From: Bacteroidota bacterium
GTDB lineage: Bacteria; Bacteroidota; Ignavibacteria; Ignavibacteriales; Ignavibacteriaceae
Assembly (NCBI GenBank): GCA_021777835.1
Contig: JAJYDC010000008.1
Span: forward strand, 62,001 to 126,000
Reading direction: 5' to 3'
Length of the DNA stretch: 64,000 bases
Shown: positions 57,012 through 64,000 of the stretch, piece by piece
Layout: each line of letters starts with the position of its first letter
Position numbering within the stretch: position 1 is the first letter of the stretch
Program-made: the position numbers and the translations under genes
Notes under the pieces: generated by a model
What the model was told of the DNA's origin: nothing
The model's input: the letters and a program-made list of their open reading frames with translations, nothing else
Databases searched by the model: none

Positions 57012-57100
57012 GTTTATGTTTGCTCTAAATTATCTGTACTTTAATTGTGCTGCTTTGCAGTAGTGAAAAAATTATGCTAATTTTATTAAAGAAACAAATG

Positions 57101-58570
57101 ATGAAAAATTTTAATATACTTTGTAAGTTTGACGGTCCTTTCCTAATCGGAAAACAATTAATAATTATAACATTTTTCTTTTATACTATGCTGAATGCTC
57201 AAACTAAATATCCCGAAATAAATAAACAAATTAAAATAGGCAATTTTACAAAAGCCGAAAAGTTGATCAATGATGTTATAGCTAAAGATAAGCTAAATGA
57301 AAATGAGAGATATAATCTCAATTTCCAAATTGAAAAAATGCATAGAATCAAGCTTGATTTTGACAGGACTACTGACGACATAAAATTTGCTTTAAAAAAA
57401 TATTACCCCGCTTTGAATTCAAAAATGATAGAAAGGTGGGAGGCTGACAAATCACTTGAGATGAAAATTATAGATGGCAAAAAATTATTTTTCCATAATG
57501 CCGTCCCTAATTTATTTAGAATTAATATGCATGCAAAAAAGCGTAAGGAAGAAGTTGACGGAGTAACTGTAGATCCCCTTAAGATATTCTTATCTGAACA
57601 TATACCTGGCTGGATAAGTGAAAGCCTTAAAAGTGGGGAAATTTATGATAATCCCGTTAAAATGAAACTTACATATACTTTAACTGTTGATTCGGATGCC
57701 GTCCCTTCGGGTGAAACCATACGTTGCTGGCTCCCTTACCCAAGAGAAGATTCCAAAAGGCAAAAGGATATAAAACTGCTTTCGGTTAATTCCGATGAGT
57801 ACATTATTTCCGACAATTCACATCCTCAAAGAACCTTGTATATGGAAAAGACTGCGCAAAAAGGGAAGCCGACCGTTTTCCAAATTCAATATGAATTAAC
57901 AGATTACTCTGAGTTCCATAATATTGATCCGCAGAAAATTAAACCTTATAACACTTCGACAAAATTATTCAAAGAGTTCACTTCAGAACGCCCGCCTCAT
58001 ATTGTTTTTACGAATCAAATTAAGGAACTATCTAAAACGATAATCGGAAACACGAAGAGTCCTTATGAAAAAATTAAAAAGATTTATACATGGATAAACA
58101 AAAATATCCCCTGGGCTAGCGCTAGAGAATATTCTACCTTAAATAATATTCCGGCTTATTGCCTTGATAATAAACATGGTGATTGCGGTATAGTTACACT
58201 TACATTTATGACATTAGCCCGTTATAATGGAATTCCATGCAGATGGCAAAGCGGCTGGATGCTTCATCCTGGACAGGTTAATTTACATGATTGGTGTGAA
58301 GTATATTTAAATGGATATGGATGGGTACCGCTTGACCAAAGCTTCGGGATTCAAAATTCCGATGATCCAAAAGTTGAATATTTCTATATAGGTGGGATTG
58401 ATCCATACCGGCTAATTATAAATGATGATTTTGGAAAACCACTTTTCCCGGCGAAAATATATCCGCGTAGTGAAACTAACGATTTCCAAAGAGGTGAAGT
58501 AGAGTGGCGAGGTGGTAATTTGTATTTTAATAAATGGGACTATCATATGGATGTTCAATATCTTAAATAA
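57101..58570 (+). CDS. Exported transglutaminase-like domain protein
   Basis: The frame opens at 57047, but ATG 57101 gives a natural start (MKNFNILCKF) with an N-terminal hydrophobic segment at about 17-31 (IIITFFFYTMLNAQ), so the protein is exported; 489 residues. The C-terminal third has the transglutaminase-like core: catalytic Cys in KHGDCGIVTLTF, His in HDWCEVYLNGYGWVPLDQS and the following Asp. Such bacterial proteins usually act as papain-like peptidases or amidases rather than true transglutaminases. The N-terminal region (about 40-250) is unfamiliar. Target unknown. Confidence 0.8.
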   Translation: MKNFNILCKFDGPFLIGKQLIIITFFFYTMLNAQTKYPEINKQIKIGNFTKAEKLINDVIAKDKLNENERYNLNFQIEKMHRIKLDFDRTTDDIKFALKKYYPALNSKMIERWEADKSLEMKIIDGKKLFFHNAVPNLFRINMHAKKRKEEVDGVTVDPLKIFLSEHIPGWISESLKSGEIYDNPVKMKLTYTLTVDSDAVPSGETIRCWLPYPREDSKRQKDIKLLSVNSDEYIISDNSHPQRTLYMEKTAQKGKPTVFQIQYELTDYSEFHNIDPQKIKPYNTSTKLFKEFTSERPPHIVFTNQIKELSKTIIGNTKSPYEKIKKIYTWINKNIPWASAREYSTLNNIPAYCLDNKHGDCGIVTLTFMTLARYNGIPCRWQSGWMLHPGQVNLHDWCEVYLNGYGWVPLDQSFGIQNSDDPKVEYFYIGGIDPYRLIINDDFGKPLFPAKIYPRSETNDFQRGEVEWRGGNLYFNKWDYHMDVQYLK

Positions 58571-58734: not shown

Positions 58735-60084
58735 ATGATTCCAAATAATAAAGAATGCCCAATAATAAAAGTTGGGATACTGTCTGAAAAGAAAATTGCC
58801 TTTAAACTTCAAGGAGAATTTAGAGTCAAGGGGTATAACCAGTTATTTAGTGGAATTTTTAATGCAGAGCTGCTGCATGATAAAATTTTATGTTCATTCG
58901 AATCAGAAAAAATTGAAGTATTAAATGAAATTGTTTTTGAACCGAACAATTTATTGGCCGATTCCTTTCTAATATATGATGTTACAATCGGAGTTAAATT
59001 TCATTGGGAACGAAAGGAAAACGAATTGTTCAATGGTTCTCTTAAAATAATCATTGACGATTACAATCTGACTGCCATAAATATTTTGCCCGTTGAAAAT
59101 TATCTGCTTAGTGTTAATTCTTCCGAAATGAGTCCCAAAAGTTCGATTCAGCTTTTAAAAGCACATGCTATTGTAACAAGAAGCTGGCTGCTTGCTCAAA
59201 TGGAAAATTCTAAAAAGGATAAATCAACTAAGTTCTTTAACACACTATCTACTGAAGATGAAATAATCAAGTGGTATGATAGAGAAGACCATCTCCATTT
59301 TGATGTATGCGCTGATGACCATTGCCAGCGTTATCAAGGTATTACTAAGATTTCAACCGAAAAGGTTACCCAAGCAGTTAATGAAACATCGGGTGTTGTT
59401 TTAGTTAGCGGAGATCAAATTTGTGACGCACGATTTTCTAAATCTTGCGGCGGTATTTCCGAATCTTTTGAAAATGTATGGGAACCGGTTAAACATAGTT
59501 ATCTTAAAGCGATTATCGACTATAAAACAAAACCGGATAATTTCAATCTTGATTTTTCTAAAGAAGCAAATGCCAAGAAATGGATAATGTCTAACCCGCC
59601 GGCTTTTTGCAACACAGCTGATAAGAATATCCTTTCTCAAATTCTTCTTGATTATGATCAGGAAACAACTGACTTTTACCGCTGGAATATTATTTATTCT
59701 CAAAATGAAATTTCTGAATTGATAAAGAATAAAAGTGGAATTGATTTTGGGGAAATCATTGATCTGATTCCTGTAGAACGAGGAGATTCTGCAAGATTAA
59801 TTAAATTAAAAATTATCGGAAAGAAAAAAACTCTTACTATCGGTAAAGAACTTGAAATCCGCCGCTTTCTTTCTCTGAGCCACCTTTACAGTTCTGCATT
59901 TGTAATCGAAAAACTTGATCTATTAAATGGGATCCCTCAACGATTCTCATTATTCGGAGCTGGTTGGGGGCACGGAGTCGGACTCTGCCAAATAGGAGCT
60001 GCCGTTATGGCAGAGGAAGGTTATACGTATGATCAGATTCTTCTCCACTATTTCAGAAATTCTCAATTAAAAAAAATCTATTAA
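58735..60084 (+). CDS. SpoIID/LytB domain protein without signal peptide
   Basis: The 449 residues carry a SpoIID/LytB domain (about 110-440). The catalytic Glu is in VNSSEMSPKSS (Glu131). KSCGGISE and GAGWGHGVGLCQIGAAVMAEEGYTYDQIL make up the C-terminal signature. SpoIID is a lytic transglycosylase that cuts denuded peptidoglycan glycan. The N-terminus (MIPNNKECPIIKVGIL) is polar, with no signal peptide or anchor, so the protein appears cytosolic. It opens the 58735-64000 gene row, 164 bases after the transglutaminase gene. A relation to peptidoglycan salvage is inferred. Confidence 0.88.
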   Translation: MIPNNKECPIIKVGILSEKKIAFKLQGEFRVKGYNQLFSGIFNAELLHDKILCSFESEKIEVLNEIVFEPNNLLADSFLIYDVTIGVKFHWERKENELFNGSLKIIIDDYNLTAINILPVENYLLSVNSSEMSPKSSIQLLKAHAIVTRSWLLAQMENSKKDKSTKFFNTLSTEDEIIKWYDREDHLHFDVCADDHCQRYQGITKISTEKVTQAVNETSGVVLVSGDQICDARFSKSCGGISESFENVWEPVKHSYLKAIIDYKTKPDNFNLDFSKEANAKKWIMSNPPAFCNTADKNILSQILLDYDQETTDFYRWNIIYSQNEISELIKNKSGIDFGEIIDLIPVERGDSARLIKLKIIGKKKTLTIGKELEIRRFLSLSHLYSSAFVIEKLDLLNGIPQRFSLFGAGWGHGVGLCQIGAAVMAEEGYTYDQILLHYFRNSQLKKIY

Positions 60085-60131
60085 TTGTTCGATATCTTTT
60101 CCTTACGATTATAAAAAATGGATTGAATAAA

Positions 60132-61598
60132 ATGTCAAAAAAAATAACAGCTTTTCTTCAGTATAACGAAAATGATTTTACGAAAATCTTTGTAAAAGAA
60201 CTTCAAAGCTCCGGTTTAGTTTCTAAAATATTTTTACTCAGCTCCAAAAATAACCCTGCTAAAATTGAAGGAACTAATACCTTAAAAATTGAAAGCCCCT
60301 TTGATTCAAACACAATAAAACTTATCAGTGATAATGCAAATTCTGATTATATACTATACCTGAATCAGGATATCTTAATTGAATTAGGTCAGTTTGCTCT
60401 GGAGAGATTCTTATACGTTGCTGAAAATACAAACTCGGGTCTATTGTACTCGGATTATCTGGAAATTACCGGAGAAGAAAAAAAACCTCATCAGTTAATA
60501 GACTACCAATTGGGCAGCATTAGAGATGAATTTAATTTTGGTCCTATTCTGTTTTTTTCCAAAGAAGCAATTAAAAACTATAAAAAGTCTTTTGAGTATA
60601 AATTCGCTGGACTTTATGATCTTTCCCTTTCAGTCTCGCGAACCAATACAATCTTGAGAATACCTGAATTTTTGTATTCAACCATTGCTACAGATTTAAG
60701 AAAATCCGGTGAAAAGCTTTTTGATTATGTAAATCCTAAAAACCGTGAGGTCCAAATTGAAATGGAAAAAGCAGCAACCGAACATTTAAAAATGATCGGA
60801 GCATACTTAAAACCTGAATTTGAGCAAATTAATTTTGATGAAAAAAAGTTCCGTTATGAAGCTTCCGTTATTATCCCCGTTAAAAATCGAGTTAAAACAA
60901 TCGGAGATGCAATTCAATCTGTCCTTAATCAAAAAACAAATTTTGACTTTAATCTTTTAATTGTAGATAATTATTCTACTGACGGGACTACAAATGTAAT
61001 AAAGGAATTTGCGGATAAAAATGAGAAAGTATATCACCTAATTCCGACGAGAAAAGATTTGGGGATAGGCGGTTGCTGGAATGAAGCTGTCCATCATAAT
61101 GACTGCGGTATGTTTGCAATACAATTGGATAGTGATGACCTTTATAAAGGAATAGATACAATTCAGAAAATCGTAGATAAATTTAAAGAAGAAAAATGTG
61201 CGATGGTTATAGGAAGTTACTCTCTTACTGATTTTAAGCTAAATGAGCTCCCTCCTGGAATTATTGACCATAAGGAATGGACCCCTGATAATGGGAGAAA
61301 TAATGCACTTCGCATCAATGGTTTAGGTGCCCCGCGTGCTTATTATACTCCGGTTTTACGCGATATAAAAATTCCAAATGTTAGTTATGGAGAGGATTAT
61401 GCCATTAGCCTGGCTATTTCGCGTAATTATAAAATTGGCAGAATATTCGAATCACTTTATTATTGCAGAAGATGGGAAGAAAATAGCGATGCTGCTTTAT
61501 CAATAGAAAAACAAAATATAAATAATACTTATAAAGACAGAATAAGAACAATTGAAATTATGTCACGTCAGAAAAAAAATTTGGCTGACTCTAAATAA
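60132..61598 (+). CDS. Tandem GT2-family glycosyltransferase
   Basis: ATG 60132 gives 488 residues; a TTG three codons upstream is also possible. The second half (about 240-480) is a normal GT2 catalytic domain: SVIIPVKNR, LLIVDNYSTDGT and the DSDD metal motif. The first half has GT-A-like elements (LYLNQD, LLYSDYLEIT) but no complete catalytic site, so it looks like a degenerate duplicated GT2 domain. There is no membrane helix, so the enzyme is cytosolic. Its position between the SpoIID and DUF4922 genes suggests the same pathway; the acceptor is unknown. Confidence 0.85.
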   Translation: MSKKITAFLQYNENDFTKIFVKELQSSGLVSKIFLLSSKNNPAKIEGTNTLKIESPFDSNTIKLISDNANSDYILYLNQDILIELGQFALERFLYVAENTNSGLLYSDYLEITGEEKKPHQLIDYQLGSIRDEFNFGPILFFSKEAIKNYKKSFEYKFAGLYDLSLSVSRTNTILRIPEFLYSTIATDLRKSGEKLFDYVNPKNREVQIEMEKAATEHLKMIGAYLKPEFEQINFDEKKFRYEASVIIPVKNRVKTIGDAIQSVLNQKTNFDFNLLIVDNYSTDGTTNVIKEFADKNEKVYHLIPTRKDLGIGGCWNEAVHHNDCGMFAIQLDSDDLYKGIDTIQKIVDKFKEEKCAMVIGSYSLTDFKLNELPPGIIDHKEWTPDNGRNNALRINGLGAPRAYYTPVLRDIKIPNVSYGEDYAISLAISRNYKIGRIFESLYYCRRWEENSDAALSIEKQNINNTYKDRIRTIEIMSRQKKNLADSK

Positions 61599-61634
61599 TA
61601 TTTCCCTCGTCTAAGAATAGAGAAGGCACTCAAT

Positions 61635-62651
61635 TTGGATAACAATATGTTATGTTCAAATAAAGAAATCGATAAATTCATTTCCTTGAGCGATTATTGG
61701 AATGCGTCCAAATTGTTACTCGAACAGCAGAAAAAACAATGGCCGCAGCTCGCCGAAGGATACAATTCATTGAGCTCAATAAAAGTTAAAGAATTTATAT
61801 TTGATGGCTTTACAATAAGAGTACAATTTAACCCTGGCAGAATAATTTCCACTTCAGCAAATGTTAATGATGCTGCAATTAAAGAAAGAAAATGCTTTTT
61901 ATGCCAACAAAATCTTCCCCCGGAGCAAAAAGGGATTTTATATCTTGATAAGATGGTTATTCTTTGTAATCCATTTCCCATCTTTCCCGAGCATTTTACT
62001 ATTGCAAATATTGATCATTCCCCTCAGCAGATAATAAATTCATTTGATATTTTTTTATCACTTAGCAAAGATTTATCAGGACATTATACTGTGTTTTACA
62101 ACGGACCTAAATGCGGTGCCTCTGCTCCTGATCATCTTCACTTCCAGGCTGGTAATAAAAATTTTATGCCAGTGGATAACGAATACTATTTCATTAAAGA
62201 AAAATATGGTAAAGAAATTTATTCTACAGATAGTATAGCCGTTTTCGGAGCAGATGACGGTCTTAGAAGATTCATATCGTTTGAATCAAAAGATATAAAC
62301 TTAATAAAGAAGTGTTTCGGGAAATTTTATTCTATGTATAAGTCTCATTCGAGTGGAAGTGATGAACCTAAAATGAATATATTATCCTTTTATGATAGCG
62401 AAAAAGGATGGAGGGTGATTGTCTTTTTACGTGAGAAACACCGTCCGTCTCACTTCTCTGTAAGTGATGAAAATAAAATTCTCCTTAGTCCGGCAGCAGT
62501 TGATATTGGAGGTGTTTGCATTACCCCTCTTAAAAATGACTTTGACCGTATTACAAAGAATATACTCACTGAAATATTTAACGAGGTTTCATTCGACAAA
62601 GATAATTTTGAGCTACTGATTAAAGCTTTAATAGAAGATTTTATGAGCTAA
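61635..62651 (+). CDS. DUF4922 protein, HIT-like (HxHxQ) nucleotidyltransferase/phosphorylase candidate
   Basis: The 338 residues start with TTG; AGAAGG nine bases upstream supports it over the ATG at 61647. CFLC at 87-90 is a CxxC zinc-like pair, and GASAPDHLHFQAG (about 161-173) holds H167-x-H169-x-Q171. HxHxQ is the active-site motif of the galactose-1-phosphate uridylyltransferase / Ap4A phosphorylase / GDP-galactose phosphorylase branch of the HIT superfamily, whose middle His forms a nucleotidylated intermediate. I infer a cytosolic enzyme acting on a sugar phosphate or nucleotide sugar. The domain of unknown function itself has no assigned reaction that I know. Confidence 0.8.
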   Translation: MDNNMLCSNKEIDKFISLSDYWNASKLLLEQQKKQWPQLAEGYNSLSSIKVKEFIFDGFTIRVQFNPGRIISTSANVNDAAIKERKCFLCQQNLPPEQKGILYLDKMVILCNPFPIFPEHFTIANIDHSPQQIINSFDIFLSLSKDLSGHYTVFYNGPKCGASAPDHLHFQAGNKNFMPVDNEYYFIKEKYGKEIYSTDSIAVFGADDGLRRFISFESKDINLIKKCFGKFYSMYKSHSSGSDEPKMNILSFYDSEKGWRVIVFLREKHRPSHFSVSDENKILLSPAAVDIGGVCITPLKNDFDRITKNILTEIFNEVSFDKDNFELLIKALIEDFMS

Positions 62652-62907
62652 ATAAATCCTTCTATTTAATTTATTTAGCAATTCAAAATATTCAATATGT
62701 AGACTAATGTTTATAAATGTGTGTGCCCATATTTAATTTTAGGAATATAGAAGCTAATACAGTAAATGAATTAGAAATGACTTAAAGTAAATTAATTTGC
62801 TGTCTATATAATGTAAAATTAAAATGCCGGAGATAGTTTTCTTCAAATGGACTTTTGTAAAAACTAATTATCTAATTTTATAATTAAGAATTTGAGAATT
62901 ACCTAAT
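62652..62907. other. Intergenic gap before the kinase gene
   Basis: 256 AT-rich bases without a coding frame. A TATAAT-like sequence near 62805 may be the promoter of the kinase/permease pair, which would split the region into two transcripts. Confidence 0.35.
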
Positions 62908-63831
62908 ATGGAATATATAATCGGAATGGACGGCGGAGGCACTAAAACTAATTGTGTTATTGCTGATACTGAAGGAAATATATTATATAAAACTACCGGA
63001 GGACCTTCTAACTTTTTAATTTCGGGAACTGAAGAGGTATCTAAGGTCATTTTCGAGCTAATTGAAAATTGTAAAAATCAATTAAACATTAATTATTCCG
63101 AAATAAAGTTTATATTAATAGGAGTTACTGGTGGAGGGCGACGCACTGACTCGGAACGATTAGAAAAAAGCTTTATATCCTTTTCTAAATTAAAAGGAAT
63201 TGAATTTGAAAATGTTCTGGTCGAAAGCGATGCACGCATAGCTCTTGAGGGAGCCTTTTCAGGTAAACCTGGTAGTATCCTTATTGCTGGCACCGGCTCA
63301 ATTATGTTTGGTAAGGACGAGGACGGTAATATACACAGAGTAGGAGGGTTTGGAAGATTTTTAGGAGACGAGGGTAGCGGGTATTCAATTGGTCACAAAG
63401 GGCTTGTCGCAGTAGCTAAAGAATTTGACGGCAGGGGAGAACATTCCGATATTACTAGGCTGCTAAATGAGAAATTCAGTATCGATTCATCTGAATCATT
63501 AATTACCAAAGTATATAAAGATAATTTTAACATTGCCTCTGCCGCTCCTTTAGTAATAGATGCTGCAAGTGGTAATGACAAAATTGCTGTTAGGATTATT
63601 GACGAAGAAACAGAAGCACTTATTTCGTACATAGAAACTATGGTAAAAAAAATTGATAAACCTGTCTTGAATATTTCTTTTATTGGAGGAATATTACTTA
63701 GTGATAATGTTTTTTCAAGAACCTTGCGCGATAAAATTGCAAAGATATTGCCTAATGTTATATTAATTGAAGCAGAAAATCCTCCGGAAGTCGGAGCGCT
63801 TTTAATGATAAAGAGATTATTAAAAAAATAA
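62908..63831 (+). CDS. BadF/BadG-family sugar kinase (N-acetylglucosamine/MurNAc kinase type)
   Basis: The 307 residues of this ASKHA-fold kinase have GMDGGGTKTNCVIAD (phosphate-1 loop, about 6-20), ESDARIALEG (about 108-117), AGTGSIMFG (about 126-134) and GGFGRFLGDEGSGYSIG. The last motif characterises BadF-type N-acetylglucosamine and N-acetylmuramic acid kinases rather than benzoyl-CoA reductase activators, which are built differently and sit with other subunits. It would phosphorylate an imported aminosugar. The AmpG-like permease gene starts 60 bases downstream. Sugar specificity cannot be read. Confidence 0.85.
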   Translation: MEYIIGMDGGGTKTNCVIADTEGNILYKTTGGPSNFLISGTEEVSKVIFELIENCKNQLNINYSEIKFILIGVTGGGRRTDSERLEKSFISFSKLKGIEFENVLVESDARIALEGAFSGKPGSILIAGTGSIMFGKDEDGNIHRVGGFGRFLGDEGSGYSIGHKGLVAVAKEFDGRGEHSDITRLLNEKFSIDSSESLITKVYKDNFNIASAAPLVIDAASGNDKIAVRIIDEETEALISYIETMVKKIDKPVLNISFIGGILLSDNVFSRTLRDKIAKILPNVILIEAENPPEVGALLMIKRLLKK

Positions 63832-63891
63832 ATAACAATTCTTATTCAATTTGCGCCTTAAACGCTTATCCTAAACTCGGAGAACAATATT

Positions 63892-64000
63892 ATGTCGAGA
63901 GAAAAAGTTGAATCGCGAAATCCATGGACCTGGGTCCCCTCACTTTATTATGCTGAAGGGATTCCCTATGCCTTGGTTATGTTGGTCTCTGTCATTATGT
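63892..64000 (+). CDS. AmpG-like MFS permease, start only
   Basis: The frame opens at 63892 (MSREKVESRNPWTWVPSLYY) and runs past the window end. NPWTWVPSLYYAEGIPYA then the hydrophobic LVMLVSVIM is typical of AmpG/PAT-type permeases in Bacteroidota, which import anhydromuropeptides or similar solutes. Only 36 residues are visible, so the call is provisional. It follows the sugar kinase by 60 bases in the same direction. Confidence 0.7.
   Translation, partial: MSREKVESRNPWTWVPSLYYAEGIPYALVMLVSVIM

Follow-up and report, generated by a model that had tools for sequence, protein, structure and literature searches.

A Bacteroidota-type peptidoglycan salvage locus in Ignavibacteriaceae carries a trio of probably cytosolic proteins inherited together with AmpG

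We analyzed a 64,000-nucleotide stretch of DNA (the window) from a Bacteroidota bacterium of the family Ignavibacteriaceae and found at its end a peptidoglycan (muropeptide) salvage locus of the Bacteroidota type, a variant of a published operon. Its genes encode a SpoIID/LytB-domain protein, a two-domain family 2 glycosyltransferase (GT2), a DUF4922 protein, a BadF-family kinase, and an AmpG-like permease, and the first three form a trio that is inherited together with AmpG. Our best explanation, to which we give a probability of roughly 0.6, is a salvage route of AmpG, the MurK-like kinase, and MurQ, with the trio acting in the cytosol on the imported disaccharide. From the observed genes, domains, folds, missing signal peptides, neighborhoods, and co-inheritance, we infer the substrates, the reactions, and the part of the trio as follows. 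The AmpG-type permease would import peptidoglycan disaccharides with or without peptides. The trio (a SpoIID protein lacking a signal peptide, the GT2, and an Apa2-like DUF4922 protein) would process the imported N-acetylglucosamine-(anhydro)N-acetylmuramic acid (GlcNAc-[anhydro]MurNAc) before the kinase step, and the BadF-family MurK-like kinase would add a phosphate to O-6 of the released amino sugar. MurNAc-6-phosphate (MurNAc-6-P) would then be converted to GlcNAc-6-P by MurQ, whose gene lies elsewhere in the genome, and a POT transporter and an NlpC/P60 enzyme would handle the peptide part.

The window is positions 62001 to 126000 of contig C12 in a 3.64-Mb draft genome (95 contigs; rated 98.37% complete), and the contig continues for 3652 bases past it. 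Judged by its best named matches (76% identity with an unclassified Bacteroidetes MAG, followed by Ignavibacteria MAGs), the source would be a Bacteroidota or Ignavibacteria-like bacterium. The genes are listed below, with those beyond the window given in the coordinates of locus L002.

57047 to 58570, plus strand: transglutaminase-like protein, probably exported; 507 amino acids (aa) in the longest frame; PF01841, E value 1.5e-21
58735 to 60084, plus strand: SpoIID/LytB-domain protein; 449 aa; PF08486, 4.7e-21; TIGR02669, 165.5 bits (cutoff, 83.3)
60123 to 61598, plus strand: two-domain GT2 protein; 491 aa; PF00535, 1.5e-22, residues 248 to 381
61635 to 62651, plus strand: DUF4922 protein; 338 aa; PF16269, 1.3e-58; HxHxQ at residues 167 to 171, CxxC at 87 to 90
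62908 to 63831, plus strand: BadF-family amino-sugar kinase, probably a MurNAc/GlcNAc 6-kinase; 307 aa; PF01869, 7.6e-40
63892 to 64000, plus strand: AmpG-like permease, first 36 codons (109 bases) in the window; full protein of 429 aa at L002 7893 to 9182
L002 9182 to 10684, past the window edge, after the permease: POT-family transporter
L002 10770 to 11651, past the window edge, after the POT transporter: SH3-NlpC/P60 protein, truncated by the contig end

The five neighboring plus-strand genes named in an earlier reading of this stretch (the original prediction) were present, with the SpoIID/LytB, GT2, DUF4922, and BadF domains where it had placed them and a permease that is full length beyond the window. 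The remainder of that protein bore out its assignment as AmpG-like: it aligned with solved AmpG over residues 18 to 412 (2.6e-15) and scored 168.8 bits against the AmpG subfamily model TIGR00901, below the cutoff of 350. A second AmpG-like permease of the same genome, away from the trio (L161, 8121 to 9389, on contig C56), scored 411.9 bits with the AmpG model used for the genome comparison below. The best solved relative of the kinase was an N-acetylmuramic acid/N-acetylglucosamine kinase (8zo3; 1.7e-38 over residues 1 to 301), which agrees with the amino-sugar type originally predicted for it; its score against the NagK model NF046058 (117.6 bits) was below the cutoff of 370. MurK of Tannerella forsythia, which belongs to that Pfam family as well, is reported to yield MurNAc-6-P (PMC5790795). 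MurQ is encoded on contig C22, near the gidA/gidB genes (380.8 bits; cutoff, 302), and AnmK had no match to PF03702 in this 98.37% complete genome. Because the kinase is nearest to a solved MurNAc/GlcNAc kinase, MurQ is present, and AnmK is undetected, AmpG, a 6-kinase, and MurQ are the likely backbone of the route.

To ask which genes travel together, we used 49 genomes of the class, 28 DUF4922-positive and 21 negative; three weak, histidine triad (HIT)-like matches (G027, G160, and G136; 26.6, 26.5, and 19.8 bits) were counted as negatives. Models built from genes near DUF4922 were applied at E ≤ 1e-50 for GT2 and E ≤ 1e-20 for SpoIID and AmpG, and they count neighbor-type families only, leaving other GT2, SpoIID, and MFS families in the negatives uncounted. 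GT2 was found in 27/28 positive and 0/21 negative genomes (Fisher P = 5.6e-13), SpoIID in 28/28 and 0/21 (P = 2.6e-14), and AmpG in 28/28 and 1/21 (P = 7.4e-13); these P values and the one given below for AnmK are too small, since related genomes were treated as independent. BadF was found in 27/28 positives and 19/21 negatives, and MurQ was above the cutoff in 21/28 and 19/21, respectively. In 26 of the 28 positives, BadF lay no more than 6 kb from AmpG, even where GT2-DUF4922 sits elsewhere; the exceptions were G009, with no BadF match, and G055. The AmpG-BadF pair had as neighbors a GH3-beta-lactamase (family K2, 16/31 loci), NlpC/P60, an enolase-superfamily (epimerase-like) protein, or Amidase_3, and we therefore assign the module to peptidoglycan salvage. 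Three family f5 genomes without DUF4922 (G023, G168, and G192) have a BadF gene about 3 to 4 kb from AnmK, which fits an amino-sugar kinase role.

The genes are also grouped beyond the class and recur together across Bacteroidota, a check that the original prediction had asked for. A full DUF4922 match was found in 28/198 genomes of the phylum, and we compared 28 loci of the window's class with 80 named loci, 105 of them distinct; because many contigs are short, the counts that follow are lower bounds. In 84 of the 105 loci, at most 1.5 kb separated the GT2 gene from DUF4922. Within 6 kb we found SpoIID in 45, AmpG in 36, and a BadF of the window's type in 13, and within 10 kb a MurK-like BadF in 13 and MurQ in 13. 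All five genes, with either kinase type, stood together in 21/105 loci, so the grouping exceeds chance. In Dysgonomonas hofstadii (L118), an example from Bacteroidales, the order is NamZ-SSF-GT2-DUF4922-SpoIID-AmpG-NamZ-H34-BadF-MurQ, where SSF is a sodium symporter and H34 a 389-aa protein without a Pfam match. A GNAT acetyltransferase (family H30, 7 loci) lies between GT2 and DUF4922 in L042, L053, L106, L107, and L113. In f2 loci (L032, L041, L055 to L057, and others), the GT2-DUF4922 pair faces a conserved gene set on the other strand that encodes a PAS histidine kinase and two response regulators, one of the sigma-54 type and one with a SpoIIE phosphatase. The pair also occurs in Syntrophales and other Deltaproteobacteria (L111, L121, L133, L137, and L140), possibly by lateral transfer, in some cases near a gene of an AmiA-like amidase family.

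The closest known system is the ampG-murTKQ operon of T. forsythia, whose ybbC gene we take to be NamZ. Published work on this operon (Tanf_08345-08385) gives the co-transcribed order xanthan lyase-gtf-gtf-lytB-ampG-ybbC-murT-murK-murQ, describes uptake of GlcNAc-anhMurNAc and GlcNAc-MurNAc by its AmpG, and reports growth that is only slightly impaired with GlcNAc-anhMurNAc(-peptides) and restricted on free anhMurNAc; no AnmK ortholog is predicted for the organism (PMC5388701, PMC7670621, PMC5790795). The two systems agree in the order of the core genes (two gtf genes, lytB, and ampG, with a BadF-family kinase and MurQ) and in the lack of AnmK, and in both an AmpG-family permease stands in one run with SpoIID/LytB and glycosyltransferase genes. 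The idea of a wholly new alternative pathway was thus too strong. By synteny in L118, L127, L128, and L130, the second T. forsythia gtf would be the DUF4922 gene. The locus studied here differs in its kinase, which belongs to another, better-scoring BadF branch (about 23 to 31% identity at best to Bacteroidales MurK-like proteins, over most of the length), in having MurQ on another contig (C22) instead of in the operon, and in the attached genes for a POT transporter and an NlpC/P60 protein. Contig C75 holds NamZ, which adjoins a NagX/HGSNAT protein distantly like the one in the MurT position; NamZ and MurT were not found in the locus, whose contig ends 3.7 kb past the window.

The GT2 model (m85d2e942e9ad; mean predicted local distance difference test [pLDDT], 88.3) matched K4CP, a chondroitin polymerase of two domains, over residues 2 to 487 (Z, 25.5; 404 residues), with the two domains arranged otherwise than in K4CP, given the root mean square deviation (rmsd) of 21.6. 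Its second domain is near GlcNAc-type GT-A enzymes (heparosan synthase, Z of 23.4 and rmsd of 2.4 over 217 residues; TarP and TarS, Z of about 19 to 20) and carries LDSDD, found in 82/82 homologs, and GEDY. The tandem GT2 of the original prediction was thus confirmed at the level of the fold, although Pfam detects the second domain only; the first may be inactive and probably lacks a metal motif, since any DxD within residues 60 to 150 occurred in only 17/82 homologs. The DUF4922 model (m46deaf11b5a8; pLDDT, 93.7) best matched the yeast diadenosine tetraphosphate (Ap4A) phosphorylase Apa2 (Z, 22.2; rmsd, 2.9 over 256 residues), followed by the next family at a Z of 12.0 and GalT-like enzymes at about 10, and a sequence profile also matched Apa2 (2.4e-4). 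This points to a nucleotidyl-transferase/phosphorylase (HIT/GalT) fold and a putative activity of that kind; the fold itself shows no substrate. Arp2/3 and APH chains in the Foldseek list had low TM-scores and were taken as noise. The predicted HxHxQ site was conserved in 101/103 homologs and missing in L045 and L094. In L045 (9882 to 10895), it is replaced by HxHxH, the pattern typical of HIT hydrolases. Among the weak DUF4922 matches counted as negatives, L030 and L031 (166 and 165 aa) resemble small HIT proteins. Like Apa2 and plant GDP-L-galactose phosphorylase (GGP), its relatives in the GalT/HIT superfamily, the protein has this fold and HxHxQ; it differs from Apa2 in its roughly 15% identity and its peptidoglycan-salvage context. 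In a literature search, DUF4922 appeared in plant work only, including a report of a GGP homolog annotated with the domain (PMC9871823).

Several observations weigh against the proposed role of the trio. A route of AmpG, MurK, and MurQ needs neither the GT2 nor the DUF4922 protein, both of which are without a known reaction, and MurQ was not above the cutoff in 7/28 DUF4922-positive genomes. The positives fall in 5/14 families and comprise all genomes of f1, f2, f4, and f9 plus two of the three in f3, so common descent explains part of the co-inheritance. Only f3 offers a comparison inside one family: G078 and G097 have both the trio and AmpG, and G004 has neither. One genome, G039, lacks the trio and carries an AmpG-family gene, with a score close to that of the source genome's second AmpG-like gene. 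In-frame stops occur in GT2 (G176, G082, and G124), SpoIID (G188), and AmpG (G184); those in GT2 and SpoIID (G176:C26, G082:C116, G124:C1, and G188:C1) are single stops in otherwise full-length genes and reflect sequencing errors or decay. Finally, in the order-level relatives of f2, GT2-DUF4922, SpoIID, and AmpG-BadF are found at three separate places, and in f1 and f2 the neighbor of SpoIID is a GT4 glycosyltransferase, a possible sign of glycan synthesis.

The trio, with GT4 in some relatives, might instead make or trim a separate cytosolic glycan or glycoconjugate, its link to AmpG arising from the use of peptidoglycan sugars by both or from shared ancestry. The proximity of a GT4 gene to SpoIID in many genomes of f1 and f2, the unlinked parts in f2, the nearness of the GT2 fold to glycan polymerases, and the Syntrophales GT2-DUF4922 pair, which has neither SpoIID nor AmpG in the stretch examined, are all consistent with this. 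It accounts less well for the strict co-inheritance of the trio with AmpG, for the single operon-like run with AmpG in Bacteroidales, and for the co-transcription of lytB, two gtf genes, ampG, and murTKQ reported for T. forsythia. We regard a separate glycan as possible, though on balance improbable.

A second alternative turns on where the SpoIID protein acts. Its solved relatives are 4rwr (5.2e-23), 5i1t, and 5txu. The motifs H-x5-C-x3-HC, (S)EM, and GWGHGVGLCQ were present in 43/43 homologs (42 distinct loci, as L037 and L064 duplicate one contig), and H186, C192, H196, and C197 were invariant in ten sequences. These match the C. difficile zinc-ligand residues H134, C140, H145, and C146, with spacing off by one residue (PMC6635528, PMC6221140). 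The identity of the catalytic Glu is likewise predicted from the alignment. The protein thus shares with the SpoIID lytic transglycosylases of sporulation and Chlamydiales the domain, a conserved Glu, the glycan-groove motifs, and four residues of the zinc-ligand type; it differs in having no signal peptide, in about 100 extra N-terminal residues, and in sitting with AmpG. Localization was judged by hydropathy (an 11-mer mean of ≥2.2 within the first 40 starts), a rule and not a trained predictor, on frames taken from the first possible start. A hydrophobic N-terminus was found in 0/43 SpoIID proteins and in none of 19 further SpoIID loci at the same threshold, with some proteins just below it (up to 2.08 and 2.09, respectively), and in 0/82 GT2, 1/103 DUF4922, and 0/11 BadF proteins; among neighbors, it was present in 5/5 NlpC/P60, 17/20 NamZ, and 9/10 GH3-beta-lactamase proteins. 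The SpoIID protein is therefore probably cytosolic, as are probably the GT2 and DUF4922 proteins, and would act after import. In the source genome, a second SpoIID of the signal-less subfamily (735 bits) stands beside a GT4 glycosyltransferase gene (L203; contig C3, 36000 to 54000), a pair repeated in many f1 and f2 genomes.

Characterized SpoIID proteins are reported to be exported or membrane bound (PMC6635528, PMC6221140), and the catalytic and zinc motifs are intact here, as they would be if the protein left the cell by an unrecognized route and served as a periplasmic lytic transglycosylase making anhydromuropeptides for AmpG. With a hydrophobic N-terminus in none of the 43 and 19 further loci and one evident in neighbors such as NlpC/P60, we consider export unlikely. 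Waddlia SpoIID is described in the same sources as a muramidase on denuded strands (PMC6635528, PMC6221140); since this is a reaction with water, a SpoIID protein acting on a disaccharide is chemically thinkable.

Imported GlcNAc-anhMurNAc needs two steps, cleavage of the GlcNAc bond and opening of the anhydro ring. AnmK was found in 9/28 DUF4922-positive and 20/21 negative genomes (P = 6e-6). It was patchy in the five positive families (2/7, 4/15, 1/3 [f3 as a whole], 1/2, and 1/2), and no genome of the nine DUF4922-free families lacked it. We also checked 39 named DUF4922 genomes outside the class set, a sample that excludes most Ignavibacteria-labeled members of the 80 loci, and found AnmK above the cutoff in 17; it was present in 0/8 deltaproteobacterial genomes and, among the 31 others, in 3/13 with MurK-like and MurQ genes in the locus versus 14/18 of the remainder. 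The control genome Bacteroides ihuae has both DUF4922 and AnmK. Strict exclusion of AnmK by the gene set is ruled out by these 9/28 and 17/39 genomes, the latter indicating that the set makes AnmK dispensable at most.

The original prediction saw none of the enterobacterial salvage genes (nagZ, anmK, ampD, and mpl) in this stretch. For AnmK this stood genome-wide; for the set it stood only in part, as the source genome has MurQ, NamZ, and a NagZ-like GH3, and relatives often carry a GH3-beta-lactamase beside AmpG and BadF (12/16 of those near AmpG with a hydrophobic N-terminus). A cytosolic NagZ was not evident in the source genome, where 5/5 GH3 matches had a hydrophobic N-terminus on this crude scale, with other glycosidase families unsearched. 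A second salvage cluster on contig C75 (L181; 6000 to 16852) encodes NamZ, a NagZ-like GH3, two GHL10 proteins, a GH25, and a NagX/HGSNAT-like membrane protein; type IX secretion tails on the GH3, the larger GHL10, and the GH25 suggest that it digests peptidoglycan externally. Compared with Escherichia coli-type recycling (AmpG, NagZ, AmpD, AnmK, and MurQ), the genome shares AmpG-like import and MurQ and differs in the undetected AnmK, the lack of an evident cytosolic NagZ, and the additional SpoIID, GT2, and DUF4922 proteins. Rhodothermus marinus is reported to have a periplasmic NagZ (RmNag3), and the authors of that work found no AmpG (PMC6987092). Its salvage genes (a GH3-beta-lactamase fusion, AnmK, and NagK) resemble the DUF4922-negative, AmpG-negative state of the class, and the source genome differs in having AmpG and the trio with AnmK undetected.

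The order first proposed for these genes was import, cleavage, phosphorylation, nucleotidylation, and transfer. Cleavage after import is retained, given the probably cytosolic SpoIID protein; the later steps misfit a 6-kinase, as MurK-type BadF kinases are described as making 6-phosphates (PMC5790795), and no 1-phosphate would then be at hand for nucleotidylation. An AmgK/MurU-like route, in which the kinase makes a sugar-1-phosphate, DUF4922 a nucleotide sugar, and GT2 the transfer, would draw on the GalT/Apa2-type fold with HxHxQ and on the lack of a MurU above the cutoff in the source genome, but we consider it very improbable, as the kinase is MurK-like, its Pfam relative MurK of T. forsythia is described as yielding MurNAc-6-P, and BadF is present in 19/21 genomes without DUF4922. 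The MurU test itself is weak because 0/14 control genomes pass its cutoff; the best MurU match was 60.5 bits (cutoff, 250), with two of three matches RmlA-like, and the AmgK search gave three APH-family matches, the best at 34.1 bits. Nor does the suggested exclusion of AmgK/MurU hold, as T. forsythia is described as having both (PMC7670621).

Within our explanation, one specific route would need neither AnmK nor a cytosolic NagZ, although we think it unlikely. AmpG would bring GlcNAc-anhMurNAc and GlcNAc-MurNAc to the cytosol. The product-side subsites of SpoIID would fit GlcNAc-anhMurNAc, and water added across the 1,6-anhydro bond would give GlcNAc-MurNAc. The GT2, running in reverse with uridine diphosphate (UDP) or another nucleoside diphosphate (NDP), would release UDP-GlcNAc and free MurNAc; the Apa2-like DUF4922 protein would phosphorolyze the nucleotide sugar to GlcNAc-1-P, with the NDP recycled; and the BadF kinase would convert MurNAc to MurNAc-6-P for MurQ. 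If true, the cell would recover GlcNAc at no cost in ATP and open the anhydro ring without AnmK, which would explain how T. forsythia, without AnmK, grows well on GlcNAc-anhMurNAc and poorly on free anhMurNAc.

At the edge of the locus, the transglutaminase-like gene upstream of SpoIID is a probable member. Its family was seen in 4 loci of each of two comparison sets, several of them adjoining an NlpC/P60 gene.

What is new here is a set of three probably cytosolic enzymes that are inherited with AmpG in genomes often without AnmK; a literature search for SpoIID together with AmpG found no work dealing with this role. Both the uptake and growth pattern of T. forsythia and the missing AnmK would be consistent with action of a SpoIID-type enzyme on the disaccharide in the cytosol. 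For the use of anhydro-muropeptides by bacteria without AnmK, our data name a candidate, a signal-less SpoIID-type enzyme beside AmpG with two co-inherited partners. If this is correct, a cytosolic role would be added to a protein family whose known activity is cell wall cleavage from the outside, the bacterial DUF4922 family would gain its first role, and the prediction of peptidoglycan salvage would change in Bacteroidota, including gut species.

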